Part shown: positions 2 to 6,095 of the stretch, in pieces | Layout of the letters: each line of letters opens with the position of its first letter | Position numbering within the stretch: the first letter of the stretch is position 1 | Source of the DNA: Sulfurimonas sp. | Lineage (GTDB): Bacteria; Campylobacterota; Campylobacteria; Campylobacterales; Sulfurimonadaceae | Reading direction: 5' to 3' | Length of the DNA stretch: 64,000 nt | Assembly (NCBI GenBank): GCA_027063505.1 | Contig: JAMORO010000061.1 | Coordinates: 1 to 64,000, forward strand | Translations under genes and position numbers: made by a program | Notes under the pieces: generated by a model | What the model was told of the DNA's origin: nothing | Databases searched by the model: none | What the model saw: the letters and a program-made list of their open reading frames with translations, nothing else

Positions 2-2683
2 ATGTACCATGTTGGTCGTCCAAATGAGAATGGTTTCGGTCACCGTGTACCACACTCAATGGGTTGTGATGGATATGATTCTCATACAAACATCTGTTCT
101 GCTGGTGCTCGTCAAGGCTCTATTCAGTGGGCGAATGATGATAGAAACTCGCCAGATTGGAAAAATGCTAAATTAGTATTCTTACAATCTTCACATGCTG
201 CAGATGCAGGTCACTACTTTCAACAATCAGCAGGTCTTATCGCTGAAGCACGTTCTAATGGTGCGAAAATGGTTGTTCTTGATCCACGTCTTTCAAACTC
301 TGCTGGTATTGCAGATCTTTGGATGCCAGTATGGCCAGGTACAGAGACTGCACTTTATCTTTATCTTGCAAACCGTGTTTTACATGAAAAAGATATTAAT
401 GGTGAAGATTTAGTTGATCATGAGTTCGTGGAGAACTGGATTAACTGGGATCGTCTAATGGCAGACAGTGAGTATATTAAAAAACTTAAAAATGAGTATG
501 GATATATTCAAACTATGCCAAAAGATAAATCTTATAAATCATTTATTGAAATGCTTAAAGAGATGTATGCTCCTTACACAAAAGAGTTTGTTACTAAAGA
601 GTGTAAAATCGAAGGTTATGAAGATAAACTAGATGAACTTTTCGATATGTATATCGATGCTGGTAGTAAAATTGCTACTTATATCTGGCGTTCAGGTCCT
701 ATTGCTCACCGTGGTGGTTGGATGATTGCACGTTCTGCATTTTTAAGTTTAGCACTTCGTGGAGCACTTCGTGGTGATATTGGTGGTACTTCATGGCACC
801 ACTGGCATGAAATTTCTGTAGCTGGTAAAGGTGAGAAATCAACTGTATCAGGTGAACGTCCAGCGAAAGTTGATGTTTGGAATGAGATTGCATGGCCACC
901 TGAGTATCCACTCTCTTCATATGAGATGAGTATGTTAATGCCTCACCTTCTTATGGATACAGAGTGGCAACAAAAATGGAAGAAAAAAGGGCTTAACATC
1001 CCTACAAAACTTTCAGTATGGTTCCCACGTATGTACAATCCAGTTTGGATTAACCCTGATGGTTTCCGTTGGATAGAGCTTCTTAAAGATGAGAAAAAAG
1101 TTGAACTAACGTTTAATCTTTCTCCAACTTGGTCTGAAACTAACTGGTACTGTGATTATATCCTTCCAGTTGGACTTGCAGGTGAGAGAAATGATCAACA
1201 ATCAACTCCATCTAAACCAGAGCAACGTATAGAGTTCCGTCAAGCAGTTGTCCGTGTTGCAGCTGAGAGAATGGGATGGAAAGCAAAAGATCCAACTCGT
1301 GCTACACTTGAAGCACACATGAAATTTGGTCTTGGTGAAGTTTGGGAAGAGTCAGAATTTTGGCCAAACATCATGGTTCATCATATTGATCCAAAAGGTG
1401 ATTTAGGTATTAGAAAATACTGGGCAAGTAAAAAAGATCCAACTCGTGCTGTAACAGTGCCAGAGTGGTTTGATGCTGCTATGAGTCTTTTACCAAACCT
1501 TTTTAAAGAAGCAAAAGCTATGTACCCAGATGCTGAATTCCCAGTATATGATTACATGAGTGTACATGGTGCATGGACAGAGAAAAAAGATGTTTATAAA
1601 CCTCAAGAGGAAGAACTTAAAATTGATCGTGATTTTGTTTATGCTCACGGTAAAAAGTATCCTCGTAGAGAAGTTACTCAAGATGAGTATGGTGCATTAT
1701 GGATAGAACATGATGGACGTAAGCACTCTATTGGTGTTGAAATCGATGGTAAATTCCACGAAGGTTTCCACACTCTAAGTAAAAAACTTGAGTTCTACTC
1801 TGAGTGGTTTGCTGAGTGGAAATGGCCAGAGTATGCTATTCCTATCTACCCAAGAACAGCAGAAGAACGTAAAAAAATGGTTCACCTTGTAACTCAAGTT
1901 CACCATGACTTTATGCAAAATGATAATGAGTTTGCTTTAAATACAGTATTTAGACTGCCGTATAATATTCATACTCGTTCTGTGAACTCTAAGCACCTTA
2001 TGGAAATCTCTCAGAACCATAATCCAGTTTGGATTAATACTGAAGATGCTGACCGTTTAGGAATCAAACGTGGTGATGCTATTAAAGTGAAGATTACAGA
2101 TACTGTATCTAATCTTGATTCAGGTTATTTCATCGCTATGGCTGTTCCAACTGAAGCTACAATGCCGGGTGTTCTTGCTAACTCTCACCATGCTGGTCGT
2201 TGGAAACTCGTTGAGTCTGTAAATATTCCAGGATTTGAGCATAAACTTGGTGTTATGGGTATTGGTTCTCCAACTTATGAGCTTAAAATGGATGGTAAAG
2301 TGGGTACACTTAAACCAACTAAAGGTATTCATCCTCGTCACGATATCTGGAGATTTAAAGAGTTTAATAAAGATCTTGATAATATCTGGTGGGATGGTCT
2401 TTCAGGTTCATGGCAAAATGCTGTTGCACCTACTCATGCTGACCCTATTGCAGGTAACCATGCATGGCACCAAAAAGTTATTATAGAGAAAGCTGGTCCT
2501 GATGATAAAATCGGTGATATTTCAGTGAACTATGAAAATAACTTTAAAACATATCAAGCATGGAGAGATAAACTGACTCGTCCACTTGAAACTGGTGATG
2601 TTTTACGTCGTCCACAACATATTAAACGTCCAGCTGTTCCGCTTTCAAACAAAGCTTATGCAGTAGAAATTAAAGACGCTTAA
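2..2683 (+). CDS. Molybdopterin-dependent oxidoreductase, DMSO reductase family catalytic subunit, 5' truncated by window edge
   Basis: Translation contains family-typical stretches (SHTNICSAGAR, SSHAADAGHYF, GAKMVVLDPRLSNSAGIADLWMPVWPG) and a C-terminal molybdopterin-dinucleotide-binding-like region; N-terminus is missing, so Fe-S site and Tat signal cannot be seen. Substrate not assignable. Confidence 0.9.
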   Translation: MYHVGRPNENGFGHRVPHSMGCDGYDSHTNICSAGARQGSIQWANDDRNSPDWKNAKLVFLQSSHAADAGHYFQQSAGLIAEARSNGAKMVVLDPRLSNSAGIADLWMPVWPGTETALYLYLANRVLHEKDINGEDLVDHEFVENWINWDRLMADSEYIKKLKNEYGYIQTMPKDKSYKSFIEMLKEMYAPYTKEFVTKECKIEGYEDKLDELFDMYIDAGSKIATYIWRSGPIAHRGGWMIARSAFLSLALRGALRGDIGGTSWHHWHEISVAGKGEKSTVSGERPAKVDVWNEIAWPPEYPLSSYEMSMLMPHLLMDTEWQQKWKKKGLNIPTKLSVWFPRMYNPVWINPDGFRWIELLKDEKKVELTFNLSPTWSETNWYCDYILPVGLAGERNDQQSTPSKPEQRIEFRQAVVRVAAERMGWKAKDPTRATLEAHMKFGLGEVWEESEFWPNIMVHHIDPKGDLGIRKYWASKKDPTRAVTVPEWFDAAMSLLPNLFKEAKAMYPDAEFPVYDYMSVHGAWTEKKDVYKPQEEELKIDRDFVYAHGKKYPRREVTQDEYGALWIEHDGRKHSIGVEIDGKFHEGFHTLSKKLEFYSEWFAEWKWPEYAIPIYPRTAEERKKMVHLVTQVHHDFMQNDNEFALNTVFRLPYNIHTRSVNSKHLMEISQNHNPVWINTEDADRLGIKRGDAIKVKITDTVSNLDSGYFIAMAVPTEATMPGVLANSHHAGRWKLVESVNIPGFEHKLGVMGIGSPTYELKMDGKVGTLKPTKGIHPRHDIWRFKEFNKDLDNIWWDGLSGSWQNAVAPTHADPIAGNHAWHQKVIIEKAGPDDKIGDISVNYENNFKTYQAWRDKLTRPLETGDVLRRPQHIKRPAVPLSNKAYAVEIKDA

Positions 2684-2810
2684 GTCTATGTCGTAAGCCC
2701 TCTTTTAGAGGTGCTTCGATATACTCACTCAAAATGACTCATTGCTTAATTTATTAATTTTTTAATATAAATTACTCAAGAAGTTATAATAATCCAAAGG
2801 AATTTTTTTA

Positions 2811-3461
2811 ATGCAAGATGTACTTACAAACCAAGAAGCACGTATAAATATTTATGCTCTACTCTCACGTTTACTTATGAATGAAGTTGATGAAGAGCTT
2901 TTAAAAACAATAGAAAATGATGAAAATATGATGGCCTTTTTCCCAAGTTATGCAAAATGGGGACGTCGTGATGAGATGGATCATAAAACACTTATTGAGA
3001 GTTATCTTAATGTAGATTTTACAAATCTTTTTTTACTTCATATGACTCCTTATGAGTCTTTCTACTGTAGAGAAGATCAGATGATGGAAACTGCAGGCGA
3101 AAATCCTGTACTTCAAGTCTTTAATGATCATGACTTTAGAGTAGACCTTGGTAAAGCGAGAGCTGTGAGTGTGGATCATATTGGGATTGAGTTTGAGTTT
3201 ATGTATATGCTCTGTGATGCTGAAAAGAAAGCACTTCTTGATGCTAATAAAGAGACTGCCTGTGAAATAGCAAAAATTCAGCAAAAATTCTTAAAAGAGC
3301 ATCTTTTAGAGTGGGCTCCAATGTTCTTACTCAATGTTAAAAGTGAAGCTGGGACAGCATTATATTTTGATCTTGCTGATTTAGCTTTAGAGTTTATGAT
3401 GAGTGATTATGAATATTTATGTGAATTTATTCAAGATGGGAAATGTAACTACGAAGCATGA
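2811..3461 (+). CDS. TorD/DmsD-like molybdoenzyme chaperone
   Basis: All-helical ~216 aa protein directly downstream of the molybdoenzyme; TorD-like features (ALLSRLL start, LHMTPYESFYCRED, HIGIEFEFMYML, HLLEWAPMF). Confidence 0.85.
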   Translation: MQDVLTNQEARINIYALLSRLLMNEVDEELLKTIENDENMMAFFPSYAKWGRRDEMDHKTLIESYLNVDFTNLFLLHMTPYESFYCREDQMMETAGENPVLQVFNDHDFRVDLGKARAVSVDHIGIEFEFMYMLCDAEKKALLDANKETACEIAKIQQKFLKEHLLEWAPMFLLNVKSEAGTALYFDLADLALEFMMSDYEYLCEFIQDGKCNYEA

Positions 3462-4561
3462 GCCTTTTAACCCTAGATATAGCAAAGTGTGTAAGAACTA
3501 CAAATAAGTTTTCTGAGTGTGTCGAGTGTGTGAATGCTTGCCCTGTTGCAACTATTAAAATAGATGAGCAACTGCCTTCTTTTGTACCAAATGATTGTGT
3601 TGGGTGTGGAGGATGTTTAGCCGCTTGTCCAAGTAGTGCTTACAAACTTGATGACTTTAATGCTATAAATTTTATGTTTTCATATTTAGAATCAGAGAGG
3701 GAGAGTATCTCTTGTAAAGAGGATGAAATTCCTTGTCTTGCAGCTTTAAATGTGGAAGAGATTTTAAGTATGTCTCTGCTTACTTCAAAAGAGATTCTTT
3801 TTGATAGATCTCACTGTAGTGAGTGTGAAATTGCAAAAGTAAATCTAAGTATTATAGAAAAGAGAGTCGAAGAGGTTAACTTTCTCCTTGAAGCGATGGA
3901 AGTTGAAAAATCTGTTCGCTTTGAAGTCCTAGAGTCTATGGAAGTAGTAAAAAATAGTGATACAGCAAGTCGAAGAGATTTTCTTTCAAAAGCATCTATT
4001 AAAGAAGCTGCAAAAGCGAAGCATAAGTTTGACAATAGTGTAGAAGCTCTTGATGAAGAGTTAAAAGAACATACTGCTACTGTAGAAGATATTCAAAGTA
4101 TAAGAAATAAAGTGGTTCCAGATAGAAGAAAGCTTCTTAAAATGGCTATGAAAAGAGCAGGAGTACCTGAAAAATTTCATGTTATAGAGAGTGAAGATAT
4201 CTCTTTTATCTCTCAAAAAGTTTTAGATGAAGAGAGCTGTACAAACTGCCAGATGTGTTACCGCATCTGTCCAACGGGAGCACTTAGCTCCGATAAGTAT
4301 GGCGGATTTATAGCATTTGATGCATTTAGCTGTATAAAGTGTACATCGTGTCATGATGTGTGTGAACCAAATTCACTGACAATAAAACCGACATTTAATC
4401 TCAAAGAGCTTTTTGAACCAAAGCAAGAGATACTTGTAAAGTTTAGTGTAAAACGGTGTGATGAGTGTGGTATGCCATTTGTATATCGTAGTGGTGAAGT
4501 GATGTGTACACGTTGTCGCATTGAAGAGGAAGAAGCAAATACATTATGGGGAATTAAGTAA
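3458..4561 (+). CDS. Multi-cluster 4Fe-4S ferredoxin-like protein with C-terminal zinc-ribbon-like CxxC pairs
   Basis: Four CxxCxxxC(P)-type motifs (CVECVNACP, CVGCGGCLAACP, CTNCQMCYRICP, CIKCTSCHDVCE) plus CDEC...CTRC; start overlaps the upstream stop (ATGA). Confidence 0.88.
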   Translation: MSLLTLDIAKCVRTTNKFSECVECVNACPVATIKIDEQLPSFVPNDCVGCGGCLAACPSSAYKLDDFNAINFMFSYLESERESISCKEDEIPCLAALNVEEILSMSLLTSKEILFDRSHCSECEIAKVNLSIIEKRVEEVNFLLEAMEVEKSVRFEVLESMEVVKNSDTASRRDFLSKASIKEAAKAKHKFDNSVEALDEELKEHTATVEDIQSIRNKVVPDRRKLLKMAMKRAGVPEKFHVIESEDISFISQKVLDEESCTNCQMCYRICPTGALSSDKYGGFIAFDAFSCIKCTSCHDVCEPNSLTIKPTFNLKELFEPKQEILVKFSVKRCDECGMPFVYRSGEVMCTRCRIEEEEANTLWGIK

Positions 4562-4989
4562 TGAGTGAAATAATGAGTGCACCAGAGACAATGAATGCCG
4601 ATAACATTATCTCTAAAAAAACAAAACTGTTTGGACTTATCGGTGAAAAAGCAGGTACAAACAATCTTTTTGCAATGATAAATAGACTTATAAAAGCAAA
4701 TAGTGTAGATGCAATGATAATCCCGATGAATATTCGTGAAGATGATTTTTACTTTACAGTTGCAAATATGAAAAAGTCTCATGTTGATGGGGCTTATATA
4801 GAAGAGGAGTTTCAGAGTGCTGTTCTTGATCTGCTTGACTATAAAGATGAGATAGTAGAAGTATACAATCGCTGTGACTTTGTTGTTAAAGAGGGTGAAA
4901 TACTTCGAGGCTTTCTACTAGAGAAGAATGATGTTAGTTCTAAAGAGGAACTTGCACAGATGATATATGAAGAAATTATAAAGGACTAA
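4561..4989 (+). CDS. Shikimate dehydrogenase N-terminal-domain-like protein, predicted pseudoenzyme
   Basis: KLFGLIGEKAGTNNLFAMINRLIKANSVDAMIIPMNI... and NRCDFVVKEGEILRGFLLE align by eye with AroE N-domain (KLFGVIGNPI.HS.SP.MHN.....D..Y.P..V and GAVNTIV..DGKL.GYNTD); no Rossmann domain; starts on TAATG overlap. Confidence 0.6.
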   Translation: MSEIMSAPETMNADNIISKKTKLFGLIGEKAGTNNLFAMINRLIKANSVDAMIIPMNIREDDFYFTVANMKKSHVDGAYIEEEFQSAVLDLLDYKDEIVEVYNRCDFVVKEGEILRGFLLEKNDVSSKEELAQMIYEEIIKD

Positions 4990-4991
4990 CT

Positions 4992-5453
4992 ATGAATGAA
5001 AACGATGTAAGTGATTTTAGAAATGAATTTGAGGCAATGAAAAAGCATGCCTTTGATAACTGTGCAGATGGTGAATGTGAAACACCTCAAGAATCATTTG
5101 ATGATTATCCTGACTATGTACGTGCAATATATGCAGAGATAATGCCTCCTGTTAAGAGTGGTGTTTACTTCTCTCGTTGGGATATTAAGGGTATGGCTGC
5201 TGAGCTTGATGAGCACATAGTTATGGATACTCGTGAGCGTATGTTTCAACACTATATGCGTTTTATTGGAAACCGTAAAGAGATGGAAGATGTTATTGGT
5301 GAGTTTAACAAACATATGGATATGAAGTGTGAACTCTATCGTGAATACTCAGAAAAGTATCCATCCACAAAAGAGATTTTTGATGCTAAAATCAAGAAAA
5401 CTGATCGTTCAAAAGAGTTTTTACAAAAAATGCTTGTGGATTTTTTTAGTTAA
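4992..5453 (+). CDS. Hypothetical helical protein of the molybdoenzyme operon
   Basis: ORF follows 4989 directly with RBS-like spacing; no family recognised. Confidence 0.75.
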   Translation: MNENDVSDFRNEFEAMKKHAFDNCADGECETPQESFDDYPDYVRAIYAEIMPPVKSGVYFSRWDIKGMAAELDEHIVMDTRERMFQHYMRFIGNRKEMEDVIGEFNKHMDMKCELYREYSEKYPSTKEIFDAKIKKTDRSKEFLQKMLVDFFS

Positions 5454-5472
5454 TTATCTTTAGATTTTAAAT

Positions 5473-5509
5473 GGATAAGAGGGATACTCTTATCCCCCCC
5501 CCCTTTTTT
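5473..5509. terminator. Rho-independent terminator between convergent genes, with C10 T6 tail
   Basis: Perfect 9-bp stem GGATAAGAG-GGATA-CTCTTATCC (5473-5495) running into a C10 run (5494-5503) and T6. Confidence 0.8.
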
Positions 5510-6095
5510 ATACTATATCTATAACTTTATCTGCATTATCAAACACTGTTTTTACCATCTCTTGAAAACGAACAGGAAAACTTTCTATATCTTCCTTTTT
5601 TGCATCAGCTTTTATGGCAGACATTAAAATAGCCATAGGATTTACTACTCTTTGTGGTCTGTAATTTACACCAACTTTTTTGCCTGTGTCTAAACGAGTA
5701 AAGCAGACATCACTCTCTATATCTGCACTATAAAAGAGTAGTTCTCTTCGCTTGTATTTACCAGTTGGAATACCTCCAAAACCGTAGTCAGTAGTAGCTC
5801 CAGTGATATTAGAGAGAACACATCCAACAACACCAGCATTCTCCTCTGTAGGCGATTTTTTTATCTCTACTTTTATCTCCCCTCGTTGTGGGAGAGTGTC
5901 GCCGTAGAGAGCCTTTAGCCCTTTAAGTGCTATAAGATAAGCACCTGAAACTGTACCACAACTATGTCCAGCAGATTTAACGATGTCAGCATAAGAGAAG
6001 TCTAAAATACCATCATCATTTACACCCAGAAATTTACTTAAGTCATCATAGAGAACTATTTTCTCTATATCATCAAAAAAAGATAAGTATTTCAT
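5508..6095 (-). CDS. FmdE-family (formylmethanofuran dehydrogenase subunit E-like) protein
   Basis: HSCGTVSGAYLIALKGLKALYGDTLPQRGEIKVEIK signature of FmdE-like domains. Confidence 0.75.
   Translation of the reverse strand: MKYLSFFDDIEKIVLYDDLSKFLGVNDDGILDFSYADIVKSAGHSCGTVSGAYLIALKGLKALYGDTLPQRGEIKVEIKKSPTEENAGVVGCVLSNITGATTDYGFGGIPTGKYKRRELLFYSADIESDVCFTRLDTGKKVGVNYRPQRVVNPMAILMSAIKADAKKEDIESFPVRFQEMVKTVFDNADKVIDIV

Follow-up and report, generated by a model that had tools for sequence, protein, structure and literature searches.

The window analysed here is a 64,000-nucleotide (nt) stretch of a Sulfurimonas sp. genome, namely positions 1 to 64,000 of the 80.7-kb contig C61, and its 5' end is base 1 of that contig. 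At this end lie part of a molybdoenzyme gene (alpha) and four smaller genes that follow it on the same strand, coding for a chaperone of the TorD/NarJ family (TorD below), a ferredoxin-like protein (Fer) and two small proteins, p142 and p153. We propose herein that the four smaller genes specify a maturation kit dedicated to the enzyme. The features are as follows.

2..2683, + strand: alpha fragment, the 3' part (approximately residues 206-1095) of a molybdoenzyme; PF01568 above cut-off; 5' end truncated at the contig start
2811..3461, + strand: TorD/NarJ-family chaperone, 216 amino acids (aa); PF02613 at 54.6 bits (cut-off 22.2); same place downstream of alpha in relatives
3458..4561, + strand: Fer, 367 aa; two 4Fe-4S dicluster regions, a linker with an internal RRDFL (residues 172-176) and a C-terminal Cys4 ribbon
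4561..4989, + strand: p142, 142 aa; predicted pseudoenzyme with the substrate-binding domain of shikimate dehydrogenase (AlphaFold2 and Foldseek), catalytic motifs gone
4992..5453, + strand: p153, 153 aa; orphan, all-helical in its model, with the motifs SGxYxSxxDxK and YPxSKEIF

An initial annotation of this DNA had listed a molybdopterin oxidoreductase, a TorD-like gene, a ferredoxin-like gene, an AroE-N-like gene and a 153-aa orphan, and had described the last four as tightly joined. The four smaller genes were recovered as described, with four 4Fe-4S-type Cys motifs in Fer besides the ribbon, and with p142 weakly matching models of the shikimate-dehydrogenase N-domain. The coordinates likewise agree with the tight junctions: an ATGA overlap at 3458-3461, TAATG at 4559-4563 and a 2-nt gap before 4992. 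TorD is separated from alpha by 127 nt. The molybdoenzyme gene is indeed present but incomplete, cut by the contig start. Its open reading frame (ORF) aligns to residues 206-1095 of a 1,096-aa protein (L034) with 74% identity and is the final 890 residues of a longer gene. Since the window starts at contig base 1 and the alignment begins at residue 206, the apparent start of the ORF is an internal Met. What falls off the contig comprises the signal for twin-arginine translocation (Tat) and the N-terminal 4Fe-4S motif of alpha, together with the beta and gamma genes that precede it. A second copy of the cluster occupies 1449-5792 of locus L033 on a 5.8-kb contig (C42), where it adjoins nadA. 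It shares 93.4% nt identity over 4,347 nt, stops precisely at the end of p153, and may stem either from a recent duplication or from a second strain in the assembly (contamination 4.83%).

The complete operon is seen in relatives. The order beta-gamma-alpha-TorD-Fer-p142-p153 occurs in Sulfurimonas, Sulfurovum, Hydrogenimonas and Nitratiruptor (all Campylobacterota), as well as in unclassified Campylobacterales; dozens of genomes show this order, and the arrangement is not a product of chance. By automatic ORF calling, all four helpers are present at 38 of the 54 loci with enough downstream sequence. In Sulfurovum mangrovi the operon is carried on a plasmid, and p142 and p153 are annotated as hypothetical proteins. 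Full-length relatives of alpha (~1,090-1,150 aa) carry a twin-arginine motif, SRRxFLK(G), at the N-terminus, an invariant N-terminal CxxCxxxC..C, and an invariant Cys in a SHTNIC/THTNIC-type motif at the expected Mo site. With PF01568 in the window fragment and PF00384 in the full-length relatives, both above cut-off, alpha belongs to the DMSO reductase (complex iron-sulfur molybdoenzyme) family. Beta is a 4Fe-4S subunit with its best match to TtrB (206 bits), and gamma is of the NrfD type (PF03916). The enzyme is predicted to be Tat-exported and membrane-anchored, with a periplasmic alpha.

This subunit layout, the matches of beta and gamma, and the Cys at the Mo site are shared with the Psr/Phs/Ttr enzymes. 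Nonetheless, alpha falls far below the equivalog or subfamily cut-offs of PhsA, TtrA, DmsA, ArrA, NapA and formate dehydrogenase (FDH), scoring ~113 bits against PhsA (cut-off 694) and 45 against TtrA (cut-off 1750), and the score of beta lies under the TtrB cut-off of 416. An equation of alpha with PsrA2 of Sulfurovum indicum, which has a Cys at a similar position (247), was considered but not adopted; the literature presents PsrA2B2 as a cytoplasmic cluster of two genes. Alpha and its relatives make up an uncharacterised clade of molybdoenzymes that is present in many chemolithoautotrophic Campylobacterota. Thermomicrobium, Rhodococcus and haloarchaea have more distant full-length relatives (35-37% identity), without a Tat signal and without TorD (L204, L205, L206). 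An Mrp/NBP35 gene directly follows the alpha relative in Rhodococcus jostii and in Natrinema, and DsrE, TusA, rhodanese or TauE genes lie close by. By analogy with such neighbours, the substrate is likely a sulfur compound, and the enzyme would appear to need an iron-sulfur (Fe-S) carrier.

All co-occurrence counts refer to one set of 298 genomes from the class. Alpha is present in 52 of them, with a gap in score from >600 to <100 bits. In a profile search, Fer was found in 54 genomes, including all 52 that are enzyme-positive; module-type p153 was found in 51 (50/52 enzyme-positive genomes) and p142 in 49 (48/52). Fisher tests of helper-enzyme co-occurrence gave p values from 1e-49 to 1e-56, phylogeny being ignored. 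The exceptions are few. G042 and G245 have sequences that end at contig edges; in G040, TorD-Fer-p142 is present with no clear p153 behind it; and of the two helper-only genomes with Fer, one has it at a contig edge and the other, G242, shows an in-frame TAG in the Fer reading frame (L199:4555), with no alpha detected. One group of Sulfurimonas has the helpers as a separate unit of four genes, distant from beta-gamma-alpha, and both are present. A dedicated association of the helpers with the enzyme is strongly supported by these genome comparisons. The initial annotation had taken the two small proteins for factors dedicated to the enzyme, and the carriers speak for this (48/49 for p142, 50/51 for module-type p153). 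Nor do their homologues lie mostly away from molybdoenzyme genes, the outcome it had named as a refutation; the association persists where the helpers are unlinked. The alpha of the unlinked Sulfurimonas group has a ~40-residue insertion near position 950 (L062-L065). A tie of the module to a formate dehydrogenase with SelA/SelB in that group was considered and rejected, the neighbours being glutamate dehydrogenase and MscS, and genes for histidinol dehydrogenase, shikimate kinase and thioredoxin, which lie upstream in some Sulfurimonas, are ordinary neighbours.

Chaperones of the TorD family are tied to insertion of the molybdenum cofactor (Moco). The window gene clearly belongs to this family by PF02613, but it is not TorD proper, because it reaches 61 bits against an equivalog cut-off of 132. 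Fer has a C-terminal ribbon (C334/C337/C350/C353) that is invariant in the alignment of its members; one cluster motif is lost in Sulfurovum members. The linker motif RRx[FL][LF] is present in 51/51 full-length members (shuffled rate 1.4%), a mark of conservation rather than independent evidence, the members being related; it is also present in 7/9 Fer paralogues. Like NapF, Fer is a multi-4Fe-4S protein, in its case predicted to be cytoplasmic, and serves a molybdoenzyme with a predicted Tat export; both have an RR motif (SRRGIL in E. coli NapF, SRRDFL in Fer) and a weak overall similarity (blastp 4e-6, hhalign 94%). Fer is not NapF, however, scoring 21.2 bits against the TIGR00402 cut-off of 102; it differs in its length, its middle linker and its Cys4 ribbon, and TorD, p142 and p153 stand in place of NapD.

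Relatives of Fer are found beside other molybdoenzymes. In a test set of 32 proteins, in which ferredoxin motifs raise any such score, the Fer profile matched an Azoarcus accessory protein at E 5e-42 (operon B-C-A-TorD-hyp-hyp-hyp-Fer, hyp denoting a hypothetical protein), ferredoxins of FDH operons at E 9e-25 and 3e-26, and ArxB2 at E 4e-24. Fer is a member of the accessory ferredoxin family linked to ArxB2 and FDH, and real homology is favoured by the middle and the Cys4 end, which align as well as both cluster regions. The arx clusters, in which arxB2 has been called arx-specific with an unclear role (PMC6549141), show the same layout of ArxB2 with a TorD-like ArxD, and ArxB2 is homologous including the RR linker and Cys4 end (L210:5959-7002); they differ in serving another molybdoenzyme and in having neither p142 nor p153. 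The FDH accessory set consists of TorD, a 4Fe-4S protein, DUF3305 and DUF3306, often with Mrp nearby (PMC4464133), and thus shares TorD, a homologous ferredoxin and two small uncharacterised proteins with the present module. The parallel gene order suggested that p142 is DUF3305 and p153 is DUF3306, but neither pair has homology detectable by hmmsearch or hhalign, and there was no Pfam hit. Other Campylobacterales carry one more Fer paralogue, in a third kind of neighbourhood with no TorD close to it (L195:8391, L196:7471, L200:6811).

The AlphaFold2 model of p142 (pLDDT 83.9) matches shikimate dehydrogenases in Foldseek with E 1.8e-9 and a probability of 1.00. Its relatives in Hydrogenimonas retain both domains of AroE and reach E 1e-10 to 1e-13 against AroE models, whereas the Sulfurimonas form is shortened to the substrate-binding domain and lacks the NADP domain. 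In an alignment with six genuine AroE proteins from the class, every p142 member lacks the SxS, NxTxPxK and NTD motifs and the catalytic Lys/Asp. Because these motifs are gone despite the fold, p142 is, as judged from its sequence and model, a pseudoenzyme derived from the substrate domain of shikimate dehydrogenase.

The AlphaFold2 model of p153 is all-helical (pLDDT 87.2), with no fold match in the PDB (best E 1.9) and no Pfam family above cut-off among 51 members. A RhoGEF assignment (33 members, best 4e-5, below cut-off) was rejected; this is a eukaryotic helical family without support from the fold search, and the match reflects helical composition. A shorter branch of p153 (117-130 aa) lies ahead of apbC and, in most cases, behind a gene for LRV repeats. 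An apbC match lies beside it at 14/15 collected loci, a count that is descriptive only, as the loci were selected for this by script. The two branches align by hhalign with 99.6% probability (E 1.4e-23), the module set including one sequence of uncertain context (L167:655); p153 models still score other apbC-linked members at 1e-13 to 1e-24. The shorter branch belongs to a second molybdoenzyme locus (L193:1019-11714; also L194, L197, L198, L201 and L202), in which apbC, the p153-like gene and the LRV gene are divergent from a series comprising rhodanese, a type II DMSO-reductase-like alpha, beta, an EB_dh gamma/cytochrome c, a ~134-aa protein, TorD and a Fer paralogue. TorD, Fer and p153 therefore recur at two molybdoenzymes of different subfamilies, with p142 only at the first and ApbC/LRV only at the second. 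On the minus strand of the window, at 5508-6095, lies a gene for a 195-aa protein with no family match. A homologue of this protein is present in L198 (position 2825), at a distance of 3.3 kb from the Fer paralogue there.

Taken as a whole, the genome comparisons suggest, with a probability of roughly 0.62, that TorD, Fer, p142 and p153 form a cytoplasmic maturation kit dedicated to a Tat-exported, membrane-anchored beta-gamma-alpha molybdoenzyme of the DMSO reductase family, and that the kit probably loads Fe-S clusters and cofactors before export. In this scheme TorD would bind apo-alpha and its Tat signal, and Fer, as a NapF-like multi-cluster ferredoxin, would supply or reduce Fe-S clusters for alpha and beta, docking on the same TorD-alpha assembly; its linker carries the Tat-signal-like RRxFL. 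We infer that p153 may be a helical adaptor coupling this assembly to the cellular Fe-S delivery machinery, and that p142, as an inactive shikimate-dehydrogenase domain, may act as a binding or scaffold subunit; the complex would be released and exported once its cofactors are loaded. Precedents exist in Rhodobacter, where NapF is needed for Fe-S assembly in NapA before Tat export, and in the ordered insertion of FS0 and then Moco with NarJ (PMC10609526). Several observations weigh against this scheme. Co-occurrence counts are inflated by shared ancestry, although the losses are patchy within families. The RRxFL of Fer lacks a hydrophobic h-region, and a function of the motif may be coincidental. 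In this genome p153 is not beside apbC, so that its Fe-S link is drawn by analogy with the second subfamily. That subfamily sits at another molybdoenzyme without a p142 partner, and p142 is dispensable in G294, G295 and G185, which keep alpha-TorD-Fer-p153; the dedication of the two proteins is qualified to this extent, and roles are not one-to-one.

The initial annotation had left maturation and electron transfer side by side, and the former appears to fit better. The up to four 4Fe-4S motifs of Fer would suit an electron-transfer partner of the enzyme, with or without p142 and p153, yet a Tat motif places alpha in the predicted periplasm, while no signal peptide is evident on the helpers upon reading their sequences. 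Moreover, the enzyme comes with a 4Fe-4S beta and an NrfD gamma of its own, the loss of a cluster motif in Sulfurovum suits a carrier better than a fixed wire, and p142 and p153 are without redox motifs; we consider this role quite unlikely. It is also unlikely, if a little less so, that the target of the small proteins is the molybdenum cofactor instead of Fe-S clusters, for example through sulfuration or hand-over of bis-molybdopterin guanine dinucleotide in the manner of FdhD/XdhC. The link of TorD-family chaperones to Moco insertion (PMC10609526) speaks for such a role, as do the descent of p142 from a family of small-ligand/nucleotide-binding enzymes and a MobA-type gene near the enzyme relative in Natrinema. 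Nonetheless, Sulfurimonas p142 retains the substrate-binding domain only, with no similarity to FdhD or MobA, and the p153 family has apbC and an LRV gene as neighbours, each with a link to Fe-S proteins.

Two further explanations place the small genes outside assembly altogether. Shikimate-dehydrogenase-like pseudoenzymes could sense small ligands, and the substrate-contact residues of p142 are changed, so p142 might be a metabolite-sensing regulator or expression control factor with p153 as its partner; that neither protein has a DNA-binding domain, that both are translationally coupled with Fer and TorD, and that no regulatory partner recurs make this very improbable. Passive co-inheritance, in which the small genes are carried along with no role for the enzyme, gains something from the fact that the carriers are all related Campylobacterota and the counts are not phylogenetically independent, but we hold it to be the least probable of all, as co-occurrence survives unlinking with the enzyme in trans and Fer is a relic in G242, a genome without a detected enzyme.

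A bolder extension of the maturation scheme, possible but doubtful at present, is that p153 represents a new family of molybdoenzyme-specific adaptors that would take Fe-S clusters from carriers of the Mrp/ApbC type and pass them to apo-enzymes bound by TorD, together with a Tat-signal-mimicking ferredoxin and, in this branch, a shikimate dehydrogenase recruited in inactive form. A core of TorD and Fer might then be a widespread, unrecognised Fe-S loading machine common to arsenite oxidase, formate dehydrogenase and sulfur-linked enzymes. A literature search, with most subscription journals outside its reach, found no description of p142, p153 or the helper set. Delivery of Fe-S clusters to exported molybdoenzymes before Tat export is poorly understood, with NapF as the main precedent, and the role of NapF is itself disputed across organisms (PMC10609526). 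The accessory family found here extends beyond arsenite oxidase clusters, to which ArxB2, one of its members, had been described as specific, and the module may offer a defined, testable helper set, including two uncharacterised small proteins, in sulfur-metabolising and ecologically dominant vent bacteria.

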